Of a DNA stretch of 64,000 nucleotides, positions 7,902 to 32,868 are shown piece by piece. The notes beneath the pieces are model-generated. The model worked only from the letters and a program-made list of their open reading frames with translations. It did not search any database and had not been told where the DNA came from. The DNA is taken from the NCBI GenBank assembly GCA_022818765.1, contig CP063810.1, positions 124,001 to 188,000 of the forward strand, written 5' to 3'. Made by a program: the position numbers and the translations under genes. Positions within the stretch are counted from its first letter, which is position 1, and every line of letters starts with the position of its first letter. This DNA is from Bordetella sp. (GTDB lineage Bacteria; Pseudomonadota; Gammaproteobacteria; Burkholderiales; Burkholderiaceae_B).

Positions 7902-8945
7902 TTATATAAACTCTACAACATTTTCACCTGAGATCACTTCTCCAATAATGTTAGCGTCTGAAAAACCTTCATTATGTAATATTTTTAAAACTTCATTAGA
8001 TGAACCTTCTGTACAAACTATTAATAACCCACCAGAAGTCTGAGGATCAGTTAATAATGTTTTTTCAATTATACTAATAGGTTTATTCGAATGTACAAAA
8101 TTTTTATATGTATCCCAATTTTTTTTTGATGCGCCAGTAATGCATCCCATTTTTGCGAATTTTTGTGCATTTTTTAACACAGGAATACGAGAGAATTGAA
8201 TTCGAGCCATTAATTTGGAGCTTTGGATTATTTCTAACAAATGACCTAATAAACCAAATCCTGTTACATCTGTCATAGCTAAAACAGTTTTCATTTTACT
8301 TAAAATTATACCAGGATAATTCAACTGGGTTGTTGATTTTAACATATAATGGTAACTATCTTCATCGAGCAAATTTTTTTTAAGTGCATTGGATAATATG
8401 CCAACACCTAAACCTTTGCTTAAAATTAAGATAGACCCGTTTTTTGCTTTAGAATTTTTCTTGATATAGTTTGGATTAATTAATCCATTGACAGAAAGTC
8501 CATAAATTGGCTCTTTTGAATTAATACTATGCCCTCCTGCTATAGGAATATTTGCTTTATTACAAATAAATTCTCCACCTTGTAGAACAGAATTAATAAT
8601 GTTATTAGGCAATATTTCTATTGGCATTCCAACAATGGCTAAAGCCATAATAGGATTACCTCCCATAGCATAAATATCAGATATTGCATTAGTAGCAGAA
8701 ATCTGTCCAAAATCATAAGGATTATTAACTATTGGAGTGAAAAAATCAGTTGTAGAAATTAGGGCTTGCTTAGAATTTAAACTATAAATCGCTGCATCGT
8801 CTGATGTTTCATTACCAACTAACAAATTTGGATATTTTTTAGAATTCTGAGTAGAATTAGATAGCAATCTTGATAACATGTCTGAAGATAATTTACATCC
8901 ACAACCACCACTATCTGAAAGAGACATTAAACTAGGAATAAACAT
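7902..8945 (-). CDS. selD: Selenide, water dikinase (selenophosphate synthetase)
   Basis: SelD makes selenophosphate, the selenium donor for Sec-tRNA, from selenide and ATP. The N-terminal catalytic loop reads SGGCGCKLS, so the catalytic residue is Cys rather than Sec. DDAAIY, the ATP/metal region TTDFFTPIVNNPYDFG and the C-terminal DPQTSGGLL are all typical. The length of 347 residues is normal. It is the last gene of the selenium island and ends 39 bases from the convergent lptF. The tRNA-Sec gene lies 43 bases upstream, consistent with co-transcription. Confidence 0.96.
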   Translation of the reverse strand: MFIPSLMSLSDSGGCGCKLSSDMLSRLLSNSTQNSKKYPNLLVGNETSDDAAIYSLNSKQALISTTDFFTPIVNNPYDFGQISATNAISDIYAMGGNPIMALAIVGMPIEILPNNIINSVLQGGEFICNKANIPIAGGHSINSKEPIYGLSVNGLINPNYIKKNSKAKNGSILILSKGLGVGILSNALKKNLLDEDSYHYMLKSTTQLNYPGIILSKMKTVLAMTDVTGFGLLGHLLEIIQSSKLMARIQFSRIPVLKNAQKFAKMGCITGASKKNWDTYKNFVHSNKPISIIEKTLLTDPQTSGGLLIVCTEGSSNEVLKILHNEGFSDANIIGEVISGENVVEFI

Positions 8946-8988
8946 TTTTTCAAAATTTTAAATCATAAAAATGAAGAATAGTTATATT

Positions 8989-9087
8989 TGGCGGAGGATA
9001 GCAGGAGTCGAACCTACCTAGGAAAGCTTTAAAATTCCCTTGCTGAATTTGAAGTTCAGTCGTGCCACCGGGTACGATATATCCTCC
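8989..9087 (-). tRNA. selC: tRNA-Sec (anticodon UCA)
   Basis: The reverse complement folds as a selenocysteine tRNA. It has an 8-bp acceptor stem GGAGGATA/TATCCTCC, discriminator G and an encoded CCA. The anticodon arm is CTGAA-CTTCAAA-TTCAG with anticodon TCA, and there is a long variable arm and a T-arm with GTTCGAC. The 99-nt length including CCA and the 8-bp acceptor are the hallmarks of bacterial tRNA-Sec. It sits inside the selenium operon between selB and selD on the same strand. It decodes the UGA in fdoG. Confidence 0.97.
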
Positions 9088-9126
9088 TGGGATCTTTTAA
9101 ACTCAATTCATCAAACATTATAAGAT

Positions 9127-9184
9127 AAATTTTCAGAAATAAAATCTCAATATGAAAATATTGAGATTTTATTTCTGAAAATTT
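9127..9184. repeat. Perfect 27-bp inverted repeat at the selB/selC junction
   Basis: The arms 9127-9153 and 9158-9184 are exactly complementary and separated by the four bases GAAA. The right arm contains the selB stop codon (9169-9171) and its last codons. In the selB transcript this would form a very long, mostly A-U hairpin beginning inside the end of the gene. There is no strong U tract on the minus strand after it, so it is not a textbook terminator. It could be an mRNA 3'-end stabiliser or processing site, or a bidirectional terminator (a T-rich tract follows on the plus strand). Confidence 0.9.
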
Positions 9185-11112
9185 TGTTTTTTATTCTCAT
9201 CATATATTTGAAAAATAGTTTGATCTTTGATTAAATGAACATTATTTAACCGTCTTGTATACCCAATTTTATTAAAAAATTCCAAGATTTGTATCGTATG
9301 CTTACGTCCAATATGTATTGAATCACGGAAAATAGCAGGTGTTACATTCCCATATTTTAAACATAAAGAAAACATCAATTTTGCTAGAGATATTATCTGT
9401 GTTTTATGATAAAATAAATCAGGTAAAATTTGAATGATATCTCCCTGACGCATAAGTTTTTTAAAAAATTTTCTAATATAATCCTCGTTTTTACATAATT
9501 TTGTTGCTATATAACGAACCCATGATGGATTTTTATTATTGATAATAAGAGAAAGACATTCTTTTGCTAAATTCAATTCTTCATTGTTCAATGAAGAATT
9601 ATGAGTTGACTTATATATCCATGGACCATTTTGAGAAACATAACCATCAGCTAAAAGTGTTTTTAATAAAATTTTCCAAAGTCCATCTAATCTAATAATT
9701 TGACGAAATTGTGCTGAATTTAATCCAGGTTCATCTGGATATTTATTATGAAATTCAGTTAAAGCTTCAAGAGCTTGATTGCATAATGAATTCCAATGCG
9801 AAGACAGAATAAAAACTTTTTGATTTTCAAGAAAAGTATCTATACATAAAATATTTTCACTTTGGAAACAATCATTACAATAAGAATAACCAAGCAATCT
9901 TTCTAAAAAAATTTTTTTTATCCCAAAAACTGAATTTTTCATAAGAGATTCTAAACCCATTCCATCTAAAAAAATCTTTATAGAATTTAACCATTCTAAA
10001 CGTTCATATGAACGTCTTTTGCGAATTGAAGCATTACTGTCTAAGACACGACCTCCTCCAATTGTAGAATTAGCCTGAGCATTTCTAGCAATGAAATAAT
10101 CACCGGGCATGCTACAAACGGGAGAATCAAATACCAATTGTACTTTAGTGATTTCCCCAGGTTTTACGGAATTATTAATTAGAGGAATAACACGGGCCAT
10201 GTGATGACCTGCGCCTAAATGAATATGAAGAAGAGTTCTATCATGCAAAAATAGTTTTGCGGAACTTAAAAGGTGAAACTCAACATCAATATTGGCAGAC
10301 GGTAAAAAACATTGGGGATCAGCTATCCAATTTCCACGACTTACTTCAGTTTTCTCAATATCTATTAAATTTAATGCACATCGTTGCCCAACATGTACAA
10401 TATCACTTTTTTTATTTTCAGAATGAATACTTCGCACACGTAATTTCTTACCGTTTGGCATTAAATTGAGATCTATATTTTTGTTATTTTTTATATTTAT
10501 TTGCCCAGAATAAACAGTCCCTGTAACTATCGTTCCTTTACCAATTAATGTAAAAGAACGATCAACAGCCAGTCTGAAAAATTTATTCATATTTTTTTCT
10601 GATGGATTTTTCGCATTCTCTATTAAAAATTTTCGCAGAGAAAAAATTCCTTTATCATTTTCTTTAAGAGAATTAACATTAAAAATATAAGAATTTTTCA
10701 AAAATGATTTGAATGTTAGAGCTTTAATTTCTTCATGAATTTTATTTATTTTTGTTGTATTGACCTTATCTGTTTTTGTTATAACAATGGACCCTTTTGA
10801 AATACCCAATAATTTTAAAATATTAAAGTGCTCATGTGTTTGAGGCATTATTCCATCGTCAGCAGCTACTACTAGCAAGGCAAAATCAATACCTCCAATG
10901 CCAGCCAACATAGTTTTTATAAACTTCTCATGTCCGGGTACATCAATAAAACTAATTGTATTATCAATAGAATAAGGCATATACGCATATCCTAATTCTA
11001 TTGATAATCCACGTCTTTTTTCCTCTATCAGTCTATCTGTGTTTACACCGGTAAGAGCTCTAACTAAAGCACTTTTTCCATGATCAATATGTCCTGCAGT
11101 ACCAACAATCAT
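9169..11112 (-). CDS. selB: Selenocysteine-specific elongation factor SelB
   Basis: SelB delivers Sec-tRNA to the ribosome at UGA codons marked by a SECIS hairpin. The N-terminal GTPase domain shows G1 GTAGHIDHGKS (residues 4-14), G3 DVPGHEKF and G4 TKTDK. EF-Tu-like domains II and III follow. The C-terminal half (from about residue 380) is the winged-helix array that binds SECIS RNA, ending with a family-like VTPAIFRDSIHIGRKHTIQILEFFNKIGYTRR region. The length of 647 residues is normal. The start is 10 bases after the selA stop, so translation is probably coupled. The stop lies in a long inverted repeat. Confidence 0.96.
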   Translation of the reverse strand: MIVGTAGHIDHGKSALVRALTGVNTDRLIEEKRRGLSIELGYAYMPYSIDNTISFIDVPGHEKFIKTMLAGIGGIDFALLVVAADDGIMPQTHEHFNILKLLGISKGSIVITKTDKVNTTKINKIHEEIKALTFKSFLKNSYIFNVNSLKENDKGIFSLRKFLIENAKNPSEKNMNKFFRLAVDRSFTLIGKGTIVTGTVYSGQINIKNNKNIDLNLMPNGKKLRVRSIHSENKKSDIVHVGQRCALNLIDIEKTEVSRGNWIADPQCFLPSANIDVEFHLLSSAKLFLHDRTLLHIHLGAGHHMARVIPLINNSVKPGEITKVQLVFDSPVCSMPGDYFIARNAQANSTIGGGRVLDSNASIRKRRSYERLEWLNSIKIFLDGMGLESLMKNSVFGIKKIFLERLLGYSYCNDCFQSENILCIDTFLENQKVFILSSHWNSLCNQALEALTEFHNKYPDEPGLNSAQFRQIIRLDGLWKILLKTLLADGYVSQNGPWIYKSTHNSSLNNEELNLAKECLSLIINNKNPSWVRYIATKLCKNEDYIRKFFKKLMRQGDIIQILPDLFYHKTQIISLAKLMFSLCLKYGNVTPAIFRDSIHIGRKHTIQILEFFNKIGYTRRLNNVHLIKDQTIFQIYDENKKQNFQK

Positions 11113-11122
11113 GCAAAATTAT

Positions 11123-12538
11123 CTACTCCATCAATTGATTGATAAAAATTTCTTTTTCAGAAAATTCTAAACAACGCATATCTAACCAAATAGCATTATC
11201 AGAAATACGGCCTATAATAGGATATGATAAATTTTTAAACTTTTTTTCTAAAGAATGAATAGCTAACTTCTTTAGCTTTCCTTTGTTATTCGAACGGATT
11301 ATGAATCCATAACTAGGTAATTTTTCAATTGGGAAAGTACCACTACCAATTTGGCTAAACATTGAAATAACTTCAATAAAATAATTAGAGCCAACAAATT
11401 TTTGTAATATAGGTTTTATCAATTCAGATATTTGTTGAATATCCTCTTGAGATCTTGTTAACAACCTTAAAGTAGGTAATGTTTGATCTAAAAATTCTGG
11501 TGTTTTATATAAATTTAATACAGATTCAAGTGCTGCAATAATTAATTTATTAACTCTTAATATTCGTTTTAAAGGATTTTTTTTGATTTTTGAAATCAGA
11601 TTTGCGCGTCCGACTAATAATCCAGCCTGTGGACCACCAAGTAGTTTATCTCCACTAAATGTGACTAAATCAGCTCCCAATTTTAATATTTCTTTTACGG
11701 TTTTTTCTTTAGGAAGTCCCCACTTAGCAAAATCGAGAAGTAAACCACTACCTAAATCAACAGATACAGGTATATTTGCACTATGTCCTATATGTACTAT
11801 GTTTTCTAAACAAACACTTTTTGTAAAACCTGATATTTTGTAATTGCTACAATTTATTTTCATAATCATAGCTGTATGTTCCGTTATTGCATTTTTATAA
11901 TCTATTTCATGTGTGCAGTTTGTCGTGCCAACTTCTATAAGTCGAACTCCTGCGCTCTTCATAATATCTGGAATCCGAAATGTTCCACCAATTTCTACTA
12001 ATTCTCCACGTGAAACAATGACCTCTCTTCTTTTTCCTAACGTATTTAACATTAGAAAAACGGCGGCAGCATTATTATTAACGATCGTAGCCGATTCTGC
12101 TTCTGTTAATTTACAGAGCAAATCTTCCAATAAAAGATCTCGATCGCCTCGTTTTCCATTGTCCAAATCAAATTCTAAATTTATTGGAAAATTGGAAATT
12201 CTAACTATTGCATCTATTGCTTCATTTGGTAATAAAGCTCGTCCAAAGTTTGTATGTAGAACAGTTCCTGTTAGGTTAAAAATTTTTTTTAATTTAGATT
12301 GATTTTCAGATTTAATATTTTTTTCAATACTATTAAATATATGATTCACATCAAGATGTTCATTTGTTAAATTTCCATTCTTAGCTTTTACTCTTAAATT
12401 AGAAAAATAACTTCTCAAAAATTCTTTTATGAGAGTTTTGCCATAATCTTTTTCTAAAACTTTGAAATAATCTGTCTGGATCAATCGTCCTAATGATGGA
12501 ATTTTTGAAGCTGCATTTTTAAATTTCTGTTTCAACAT
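11123..12538 (-). CDS. selA: L-seryl-tRNA(Sec) selenium transferase SelA
   Basis: SelA is the PLP-dependent decameric enzyme that turns seryl-tRNA(Sec) into selenocysteyl-tRNA(Sec), using selenophosphate from SelD. The PLP lysine lies in TFSGDKLLGGPQAG. The family N-terminus (IPSLGRLIQTDYF) and FNLTGTVLHTNFGRALL are conserved, as are NNNAAAVFLMLNT and RGELVEIGGTFRIPDIM. The length of 471 residues is typical. It lies between fdhE and selB on one strand, an order found in other Burkholderiales. Confidence 0.97.
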   Translation of the reverse strand: MLKQKFKNAASKIPSLGRLIQTDYFKVLEKDYGKTLIKEFLRSYFSNLRVKAKNGNLTNEHLDVNHIFNSIEKNIKSENQSKLKKIFNLTGTVLHTNFGRALLPNEAIDAIVRISNFPINLEFDLDNGKRGDRDLLLEDLLCKLTEAESATIVNNNAAAVFLMLNTLGKRREVIVSRGELVEIGGTFRIPDIMKSAGVRLIEVGTTNCTHEIDYKNAITEHTAMIMKINCSNYKISGFTKSVCLENIVHIGHSANIPVSVDLGSGLLLDFAKWGLPKEKTVKEILKLGADLVTFSGDKLLGGPQAGLLVGRANLISKIKKNPLKRILRVNKLIIAALESVLNLYKTPEFLDQTLPTLRLLTRSQEDIQQISELIKPILQKFVGSNYFIEVISMFSQIGSGTFPIEKLPSYGFIIRSNNKGKLKKLAIHSLEKKFKNLSYPIIGRISDNAIWLDMRCLEFSEKEIFINQLME

Positions 12539-29931: not shown

Positions 29932-30738
29932 CTAATTAGAATTTCTAATAAAATCAGGAGGCAGTGGAGTATTCGGTGATGTTGTTAATACTTCATATCC
30001 TGTTTTTGTAACATAGATCGTATGTTCCCATTGAGCAGATAAACTTCTATCTTTTGTAACTATTGTCCATTTATCAGGAAGATATTTAATATTCTTCTGA
30101 CCTGCATTAATCATTGGCTCAATTGTAAAAAGCATTCCAGAACTTAATATTTCTCCTGTTCCAGGTTTACCATAATGCAATATTTGTGGACTCTCATGAA
30201 AATTTAAACCTATTCCATGGCCACAAAATTCACGAACAACAGAAAATCCAGAATTTTCAGCATGATTTTGAATAGCAAATCCTATATCTCCAAGTTTAGA
30301 ACCAGGGCGAACTTTTTCAATTCCTTTCCACATACATTCATATGTAATTTGGCTTAATCGCTTTGATAGAATTGATTGATCTCCAACATGAAACATTCTA
30401 CTAGTATCACCAAACCAACCATCTTTAATAATTGTTACATCTATATTCAGCGAATCTCCATTTTTCAATTCTCTATTATTTGGAATACCATGACATATTT
30501 GATGATTGATTGAAGTACAAATAACCCCTGGAAAAGGAGGATAGCCTGGCGGTGCATATCCCAATGTTGCAGATTTAACTTTTAATTCATCTGTTAAATA
30601 TTCTAAGCAAAGCTGATTGAGCTTGGCTGTTGTGATTCCAACTCTTACATATGGAGTAATAAAATCCAATATCTTAGCTGCATTTTGGCAAGCAGATCGC
30701 ATTTTATCTAGATCTCTCTGACTTGTGATTATTCCCAT
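29932..30738 (-). CDS. map: Methionine aminopeptidase, type I
   Basis: Map removes the initiator methionine from new proteins. The pita-bread fold metal ligands are present in LNIDVTIIKDGWFGDTSRMF (two Asp), EFCGHGIGLNFHESP (His), LFTIEPMI (Glu) and QWEHTIYVT (Glu). 268 residues, normal. It is divergent from rpsB across a 429-base spacer, the usual map/rpsB arrangement in Proteobacteria. Confidence 0.96.
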   Translation of the reverse strand: MGIITSQRDLDKMRSACQNAAKILDFITPYVRVGITTAKLNQLCLEYLTDELKVKSATLGYAPPGYPPFPGVICTSINHQICHGIPNNRELKNGDSLNIDVTIIKDGWFGDTSRMFHVGDQSILSKRLSQITYECMWKGIEKVRPGSKLGDIGFAIQNHAENSGFSVVREFCGHGIGLNFHESPQILHYGKPGTGEILSSGMLFTIEPMINAGQKNIKYLPDKWTIVTKDRSLSAQWEHTIYVTKTGYEVLTTSPNTPLPPDFIRNSN

Positions 30739-31056
30739 TCAATATTTGTATTTTCAAAAAACATTATGGTTCAACATTTATATATCTATTATTATACTAA
30801 TAATTTATATAGAATCTTTTATTATTTATTGATTTTCTAAATATTATTGATTTTTACTTAAATTGTTCTTGATCTAATTGTTATTAGACAACTCAAAAAA
30901 CAAAAGGGAACAGAATTATTCCACTACATAAAAACATATTAATTTAAAAATGTTGGTTTACTCAATTAAAAATTAACAATTCATTTTTACAAAAGAAAAA
31001 TATTTAAATTTTTCATTTATATAAAAATAAAGGTAAAATGACAATACTAATTTTTC
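30739..31056. other. Map/rpsB intergenic spacer, upstream part
   Basis: About 318 bases of A/T-rich sequence between the map start and the rpsB promoter. Nothing beyond probable divergent promoter sequence for map is visible. No RNA gene or coding frame is recognised. Confidence 0.5.
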
Positions 31057-31086
31057 TTGAAAATTTTTCTTGAATAATTTTATAAA
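31057..31086 (+). promoter_or_regulatory. Probable sigma-70 promoter of the rpsB operon
   Basis: A -35 like TTGAAA (31057-31062) is followed after 17-18 bases by TTATAA/TATAAA (31080-31086). The predicted start falls at about 31091-31093, exactly where the leader hairpin begins. This fits a short structured 5' leader. Confidence 0.6.
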
Positions 31087-31091
31087 ATATC

Positions 31092-31158
31092 GCGACATGT
31101 TACCTAAGGGTGATGATTACTCATGAATGATCATGTCGCAAGAAATTAACCCTAGGAG
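31092..31158 (+). promoter_or_regulatory. Candidate rpsB leader RNA: hairpin plus pseudoknot over the ribosome site
   Basis: GCGACATG (31092-31099) pairs perfectly with CATGTCGC (31132-31139), closing a 32-base loop. Within that loop CCTA-A-GGGT (31103-31111) is complementary, apart from one bulged A, to ACCCTAGG (31149-31156). The latter contains the first bases of the Shine-Dalgarno GGAG (31155-31158) of rpsB. The result would be a pseudoknot hiding the ribosome site. S2 autoregulates rpsB-tsf through its leader in E. coli, so an S2-binding role is plausible here. The fold itself is drawn by eye. Confidence 0.6.
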
Positions 31159-31167
31159 TAATATTTT

Positions 31168-31923
31168 ATGTCTCTTATGCGCGAAATGTTAGAAGCAGGT
31201 GCTCACTTTGGACATCAGAAACGTTATTGGAATCCAAAGATGGCTCCTTATATTTTTGGTGATCGAAATAATATTCATATTATTAACTTGGAAAAAACAG
31301 TAGAAAAATACCTAGATGCAATAAAATATGTTAAGCAAATAGCGACACAAGGACAAAATATTTTGTTTGTTGGAACAAAGCGAGCTGCTCGTGATTCTAT
31401 TCAAACAGAAGCTTCTCGCTGTAATATGCCCTATGTTAATTCTCGCTGGCTTGGAGGAATGCTAACTAATTTTAAAACAGTAAAAGCTTCTATTAAACGA
31501 TTAAAAGAAATGGAACATTTGATTGAAAGCGGTGGTATAGATCAAATGACAAAAAAAGAAGGTCTTTTATTTAATCGGGAATTAGAAAAATTGAATAAAT
31601 CTATTGGTGGAATTAAAGAACTTTCATCTCTTCCTAATGCATTATTTATAATAGATGTAGGCTATCATAAAATAGCGGTTTCTGAAGCTAACGCTTTAGG
31701 TATACCAGTTTTAGCTATTGTTGATACTAATCATTCTCCTGATGGAATTGATTATGCTATACCTGCAAATGATGACTCAACTAAGACTATTTCCTTATTT
31801 ACAAAAGGTATTGCTGATGCAATATTAGAAAGCAATAAGGCAAAATTACATAATTTAAAAGAAGATCTTAATGATAACATTGAAGAATTTGTTGAAATTC
31901 AAAATAAAGAGAAATCAATATAA
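31168..31923 (+). CDS. rpsB: 30S ribosomal protein S2
   Basis: S2 is a late-binding protein of the small ribosomal subunit. Family blocks are [22 protein letters not shown] at the start (read in two parts), [36 protein letters not shown] and [25 protein letters not shown]. 251 residues, normal. GGAG precedes the ATG. It is first in an operon with tsf, pyrH and frr. Confidence 0.98.
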
Positions 31924-32003: not shown

Positions 32004-32868
32004 ATGATTGAAATTACAGCTTCCTTGGTTAAAAGATTACGAGAAAAAACTGATGCTCCTATGATGGAATGTAAAAAAGCGTTAATCGAAGCTTCTGGAA
32101 GCATTGATCGTGCTGAAGAATTATTACATATTAATTTTGGAAAAAAGTAAATAAAAAATCAGATCGTATTGCTAAAGAAGGTTAATATGCGCTTATATTT
32201 CAGATTCTTCTAACATAGGATCGATAGTTGAAGTCAATTGTGAGACAGATTTCGTTTCTAAGAATGAAAAATTTATTTATTTTGCTGAAAATTTGGCAAA
32301 AATAGTTACTGAGAAAAACCCGCGTGATATAGAAAATTTGCTTAATATTTCTTTGAATACAGGAACAGTAAAAGATTTACTTGCTACTTTAGTTGGCAAA
32401 ATTGGTGAGAATATTTCAATTCGTCGGTTTCATCGCATTGAAACGAATTATTCTTTAATACATTATGTTCATAATGGAAAGATGGGGGTTTTATTAGATT
32501 TTAAAGGTCCAAATAAAATCGGAAAAGATTTAGCTATGCATATAGCTGCGTCTAAACCTAGAGCTTTAAATAAAGAAGAGGTAAGTTTAGAAGAGATTGA
32601 TTATGAACGTTCATTAGCGGAACAAAAAGCGATACAAGCTGGTAAAACTGGAAAAATTTTTGAAAAAATTGTTGAAGGATCTGTTCAAAAATTTCTTCAA
32701 GAGGTAGTTTTAACATCACAACCTTTTGTTAAAAATCCTAAAAAAACAGTTGGAGAAATACTTAAAGAATATAATACATCAGTTTATAAATTTATATTTT
32801 ATATTGTTGGAGATGGGATTAAAAAAACTGATGAAAATTTCCTTCTTACAAAGTTCAAAAGTAATTAA
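32004..32868 (+). CDS. tsf: Elongation factor Ts, two one-base frameshifts
   Basis: EF-Ts is the essential nucleotide exchange factor of EF-Tu. Reading starts [27 protein letters not shown] (in blocks) and reaches INFGKK, then TAA at 32150. Adding one A to the AAAAAA run at about 32142-32147 gives [16 protein letters not shown] second missing T in GGTTAATATG (about 32181-32184) then yields [25 protein letters not shown], with the TDFVSKNE motif. The rest reads through to 32868 (ADP-loop, C-terminal core). The first site, A-AAA-AAG in frame, is a canonical -1 slippery heptamer. The second is not. Restored length, about 289 residues, is typical. Confidence 0.9.

Follow-up and report, generated by a model that had tools for sequence, protein, structure and literature searches.

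What is the folded RNA just upstream of rpsB in this strongly reduced genome, and how might it act on the gene for ribosomal protein S2? In the window (by which we mean the whole 64-kb stretch of DNA that was analysed), the initial annotation had proposed an S2-controlled leader of a distinct, undescribed version, with a hairpin loop pairing to bases further downstream. We found that the folded RNA is a real, strongly conserved regulatory leader. It belongs, in diverged form, to the known rpsB motif and is no new type of switch. Autoregulation by S2 is its likely function, as judged from sequence comparison.

The hairpin and the loop-to-downstream pseudoknot were borne out by the sequence (Table 1). 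The P1 stem consists of 8 bp and two outer pairs (31090-31091 with 31142-31143) past an AA bulge at 31140-31141. Between the loop bases CCTAAGGGT (31103-31111) and ACCCTAGG (31149-31156), 8 pairs with one bulged A are possible. An 8-bp stem comparable to GCGACATG/CATGTCGC appeared in 26 of 20,000 dinucleotide shuffles of positions 31061-31167, and such a stem together with a 5-bp GC-rich pseudoknot in none. We see only a 4-bp candidate for P3 in the window, read by eye and unscored by the model; family-wide, P3 covaries. Nested folding of the leader was stronger than that of shuffled sequences (z = -2.6); the nested optimum puts the GGGU bases in a local hairpin, and a second hairpin takes up the Shine-Dalgarno sequence. 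The motif match ends 8 nt upstream of the rpsB start codon, ATG at 31168.

Table 1. Features of the rpsB leader and of the selenocysteine cluster (window coordinates).
Feature	Position	Strand	Basis or remark
rpsB-motif leader element, whole covariance-model match	31085-31159	+	sole match of held-out model R1
Outer P1 pairs, UC	31090-31091	+	UC/GA conserved in family relatives; window register read from sequence
P1 stem, 5' strand GCGACATG	31092-31099	+	sequence; P1 covariation (57 leaders)
Possible pseudoknot extension CCU (bulged A31106) to AGG 31154-31156	31103-31105	+	possible by sequence; family support at chance level
Pseudoknot core, 5' strand AGGGU	31107-31111	+	near-invariant in family; compensatory changes across order
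Likely P3 hairpin AUGA-UUAC-UCAU, weak here	31113-31124	+	placed by eye; unscored by model; P3 covaries in relatives
P1 stem, 3' strand CATGTCGC	31132-31139	+	sequence; P1 covariation (57 leaders)
Outer P1 pairs, 3' side GA (of conserved AAGA)	31142-31143	+	conserved in relatives
Pseudoknot core, 3' strand ACCCU	31149-31153	+	near-invariant in family; compensatory changes across order
Shine-Dalgarno GGAG, 1 nt past pseudoknot core	31155-31158	+	sequence; spacing common to family
rpsB, ribosomal protein S2 (uS2)	31168-31923	+	TIGR01011, 322 bits, E 4.4e-97; ORF
selD-like	7902-8945	-	named from sequence appearance only
tRNA-Sec	8989-9087	-	
selB	9169-11112	-	TIGR00475, 397.5 bits
selA-like	11123-12538	-	named from sequence appearance only

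The distribution of the fold was determined with R1, a covariance model of 79 positions made from 13 free-living members of the window's family, with the window genome and the other reduced genomes left out. R1 produced one match in the 64-kb window (35.9 bits, E = 4.1e-7) and the same single match in the whole 866-kb genome (E = 5.5e-6). Among relatives, R1 matched 223 of the 269 genomes of the window's family, in 38 of its 43 genera. All eight other reduced genomes (0.7-0.8 Mb, of another genus, g8) were matched as well. The architecture is not restricted to the reduced genome: it was present in free-living and reduced family members. Across the order, R1 matched 25 of 300 genomes at E <= 0.01; it models the version of the window's family, and many other families of the order carry an E. 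coli-like version. A scan of broader genome contigs yielded gammaproteobacteria and more distant phyla, with no near relatives among them.

We also read the leaders of rpsB, a gene located in the window genome and in almost every one of 60 relatives. In nearly all relatives, a long stem encloses a loop with [A/G/T]GGGTG or AGGTG, and AACC[C/T] follows after the stem. The layout of the family is TCGC-P1-(linker)-AGGGTG-P3-P1'-CAAGA-CCAACCCT-N-GGAG. The leaders of many other families of the order, of E. coli and of other gammaproteobacteria are nearer to CACAC-P1 ... P1'-GUGGAGG-YUUAACCC, with the Shine-Dalgarno sequence farther off. Four genomes of genus g24 (L189, L190, L194, L195) have a common ACCCUGUGGAG version; its core can be lengthened by further pairs (CAUAGGGU/ACCCUGUG) toward the Shine-Dalgarno sequence.

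Compensatory changes, which had been named as a check on both helices, were observed within the family for P1 and P3 and across the order for the pseudoknot. For the set of 57 leaders, in an alignment fitted to the model, which favours structure, 93.3% of the pair cells of P1, P3 and the pseudoknot were standard pairs compared to 73.3% after shuffling, and the covariation score was 0.578 compared to 0.215. Two-sided changes were seen at 16 pairs, among them 9 of the 10 P1 pairs and all 5 P3 pairs, and the signal collapsed when the register was slid by one base. The picture was unchanged in an independent MAFFT alignment of 13 sequences.

Within the family, the pseudoknot is invariant except for A-U/G-U exchanges. 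Covariation at this level is therefore uninformative, and the pseudoknot was tested at the level of the order. Here we found paired variants such as AAGGU/ACCUU (L004, L028, L061), UGGGU/ACCCA (L002), GACAGGGU/ACCCUGUC (L062) and, with one mismatch, GUU-GGGGU/ACCCAAAC (L056). The fourth pair was kept in 55 of 55 leaders through GC to AU changes, which none of 5000 shuffles equalled. The pairs over the five outer positions, counted with fixed anchors since automatic anchoring misplaced about 10 leaders, totalled 199, whereas shuffling gave 167 on average and at most 187; these counts are not exact probabilities because related sequences can inflate them.

Could the copy in the window be a functionless relic in a decaying genome? 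Its score of 35.9 bits is among the lowest in the family, where values reach 82.5 bits, P3 is weak, the internal loop is two bases shorter, and tsf is disrupted. On the other hand, P1 and the pseudoknot are intact inside an intergenic stretch of 20% GC, and the fold persists in the eight other reduced genomes through sequence changes that preserve pairing. We consider a relic very improbable.

The gene tsf (EF-Ts), downstream of rpsB at 32004-32868, is frame-disrupted in the assembly near A-rich runs. Its N-terminal part was matched at 32004-32129 and the remainder at 32206-32841 in another frame; no second copy of tsf was found in the genome. The break could be either a sequencing error or real decay. 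On its minus strand, at 7902-12538, the window of this reduced genome also carries a selenocysteine cluster (Table 1).

With respect to identity, the window has the defining parts of the rpsB motif: location in the rpsB leader, P1 enclosing a loop, and the AGGGU/ACCCU pseudoknot. Meyer et al. (2009, PMC2704228) described this motif, pseudoknot included, in most Alpha- and Gammaproteobacteria and in a few Betaproteobacteria; therefore neither the pseudoknot nor the occurrence in Betaproteobacteria is new. The public model of the E. coli rpsB leader, t44 (RF00127), scored 83.5 bits in E. coli, where the match has GGGGUG and AACCCC downstream. In the window t44 gave no match, even at E up to 10, so that the leader is below the 44-bit cut-off and is not a t44 in the sense of Rfam. 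None of 61 Burkholderiales genomes reached the gathering score of 44 bits either (best 42.1 bits), and sub-threshold t44 matches were located at the rpsB leader of several relatives in the order. In several of the relatives t44 and R1 matched the same leader (e.g., L012/G060 and L007/G043), and the E. coli-like version and that of the window's family are thus linked. No other ribosomal-protein leader of Rfam reached its cut-off in the region or in the whole window. A weak S15 match, under the cut-off, was seen at 30605-30697, away from the leader.

A family trait emerged in the spacing of the Shine-Dalgarno sequence. It starts 0-3 nt past the pseudoknot core in 33 of 35 family genomes, compared to 0-9 nt (median 4) in other families of the order and 6-14 nt in 18 of 19 gammaproteobacterial leaders. 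The initial annotation had the Shine-Dalgarno sequence masked by base pairing. Extending the pairing into it is indeed possible for 40 of 46 leaders; with the linker bases shuffled, however, 39.0 would be expected, and we rejected such pairing as a conserved feature, being at chance level. Taken together, the spacing counts and the chance-level extension make adjacency a trait of the family and leave masking by base pairs unsupported. Steric masking is plausible because the pseudoknot abuts the Shine-Dalgarno sequence in the window's family.

The start of the transcript had been predicted at 31092, at the base of the stem. A promoter consensus scan found promoter-like sites at chance level in the AT-rich stretch and none ending at the stem. 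In several free-living relatives, the best promoter-like site was a common TAGAATTATAGGCTTTC block with a recurrent TAGAAT, and the start predicted from it precedes the motif by a variable 24-90 nt. For these two reasons, a start at 31092 is open to doubt, and the leader probably extends further than such a start implies.

The main rival to translational control by S2 is an early transcription stop or RNA processing, which would release a leader RNA of about 80 nt at the expense of full-length rpsB mRNA. It draws on B. pertussis, a species that we take to belong to the window's group. There, a ~80-nt RNA named BprB was tied to rpsB transcription on Northern blots in 2011; its authors connected BprB to Meyer's motif and read the result as inhibited transcription (PMC3110155). 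The size of BprB agrees with the 79-position motif. However, no intrinsic terminator was found in 30750-31200, the structure ends at the Shine-Dalgarno sequence without a U-run directly 3' of a stem, and the control in E. coli is translational (PMC10931766). We regard this alternative as unlikely. In Burkholderia pseudomallei, a candidate RNA was down-regulated along with the S2 gene (PMC5719362); nothing further on S2 control in betaproteobacteria was found in the literature searched.

Translational feedback by S2 is the reading we prefer. As a whole, it is probable that the 5' leader of rpsB(-tsf), as a diverged rpsB motif, would in its S2-bound fold block rpsB translation and lower tsf expression by coupling. 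Excess S2, helped in E. coli by S1, would bind the fold of P1, P3 and the GGGU-ACCC pseudoknot and stabilise it. The stabilised fold would then stop ribosomes from docking at the adjacent Shine-Dalgarno sequence by crowding and not by base pairing, with less S2 and, through coupling, less EF-Ts as the outcome. Crowding would be the simplest form of such a block because just one base separates the end of the pseudoknot from the Shine-Dalgarno sequence in the family. The rpsA gene for S1 is present in the window genome. The use of both GGGU and the Shine-Dalgarno sequence by the nested optimum and the disruption of the tsf frame count against this explanation. As for the initial annotation, its conserved, covarying pseudoknot leader stands, and control by S2 is the best reading of it.

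According to a review (PMC10931766), rpsB-tsf of E. coli is repressed via the leader by S2 in excess together with S1; the review calls the mechanism unclear and puts the ribosome-binding site outside the operator. Blocked docking may therefore not be the mode of the ancestral element. The more specific proposal, that the family's S2 leader is a pseudoknot switch next to the Shine-Dalgarno sequence through which S2 would repress by directly blocking ribosome docking, unlike in E. coli, is tentative, and we would give it somewhat less than an even chance.

Highly expressed operons can have protective 5' stems, and a conserved structure by itself proves no ligand. The leader might thus be a fixed element that stabilises the mRNA or enhances translation (as a 5' clamp or by spacing the ribosome-binding site) and is insensitive to S2. 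This is quite unlikely given that the letters of the pseudoknot are near-invariant from Gammaproteobacteria to the window's family, more than a clamp requires, and that the homologous E. coli leader responds to S2 (PMC10931766).

The leader is of interest to specialists in that the version adjacent to the Shine-Dalgarno sequence is fixed in the family, persists in reduced genomes and is absent from the public model. Strongly reduced genomes have retained a probable feedback leader of a ribosomal protein, and with compensatory changes. The t44 model misses a whole betaproteobacterial lineage (0 of 61 genomes pass), though a recognisable rpsB motif is present in nearly all of them; a betaproteobacterial covariance model would recover the rpsB leaders that are lost. 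The adjacent layout could also offer an easier test of how S2 represses than E. coli does.

Compared with known systems, the leader is mostly not the undescribed version that had been suggested, the architecture having been published in 2009 (PMC2704228) and BprB in 2011 (PMC3110155). Like BprB, it is an rpsB-linked betaproteobacterial RNA, and the ~80 nt of BprB come close to the 79 positions of the motif model. It shares with the rpsB motif of Meyer et al. the position directly 5' of rpsB, the P1 stem, the variable inner stems with P2 often short or absent, and junction bases that pair with a 3' extension past P1. With t44 it has the gene in common, and the stem, the GGGGUG loop and the downstream AACCCC come in the same order. 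In contrast to E. coli, where P1 ends in CACAC/GUGGAG, P1 in the window's family ends in TC/GA with a GC/AA internal loop, which is an AA bulge in the window. Finally, the pseudoknot adjoins the Shine-Dalgarno sequence in the window's family, a difference from the motif of Meyer et al. as well as from t44; the gammaproteobacterial Shine-Dalgarno sequence lies mostly 6-14 nt beyond the pseudoknot core.
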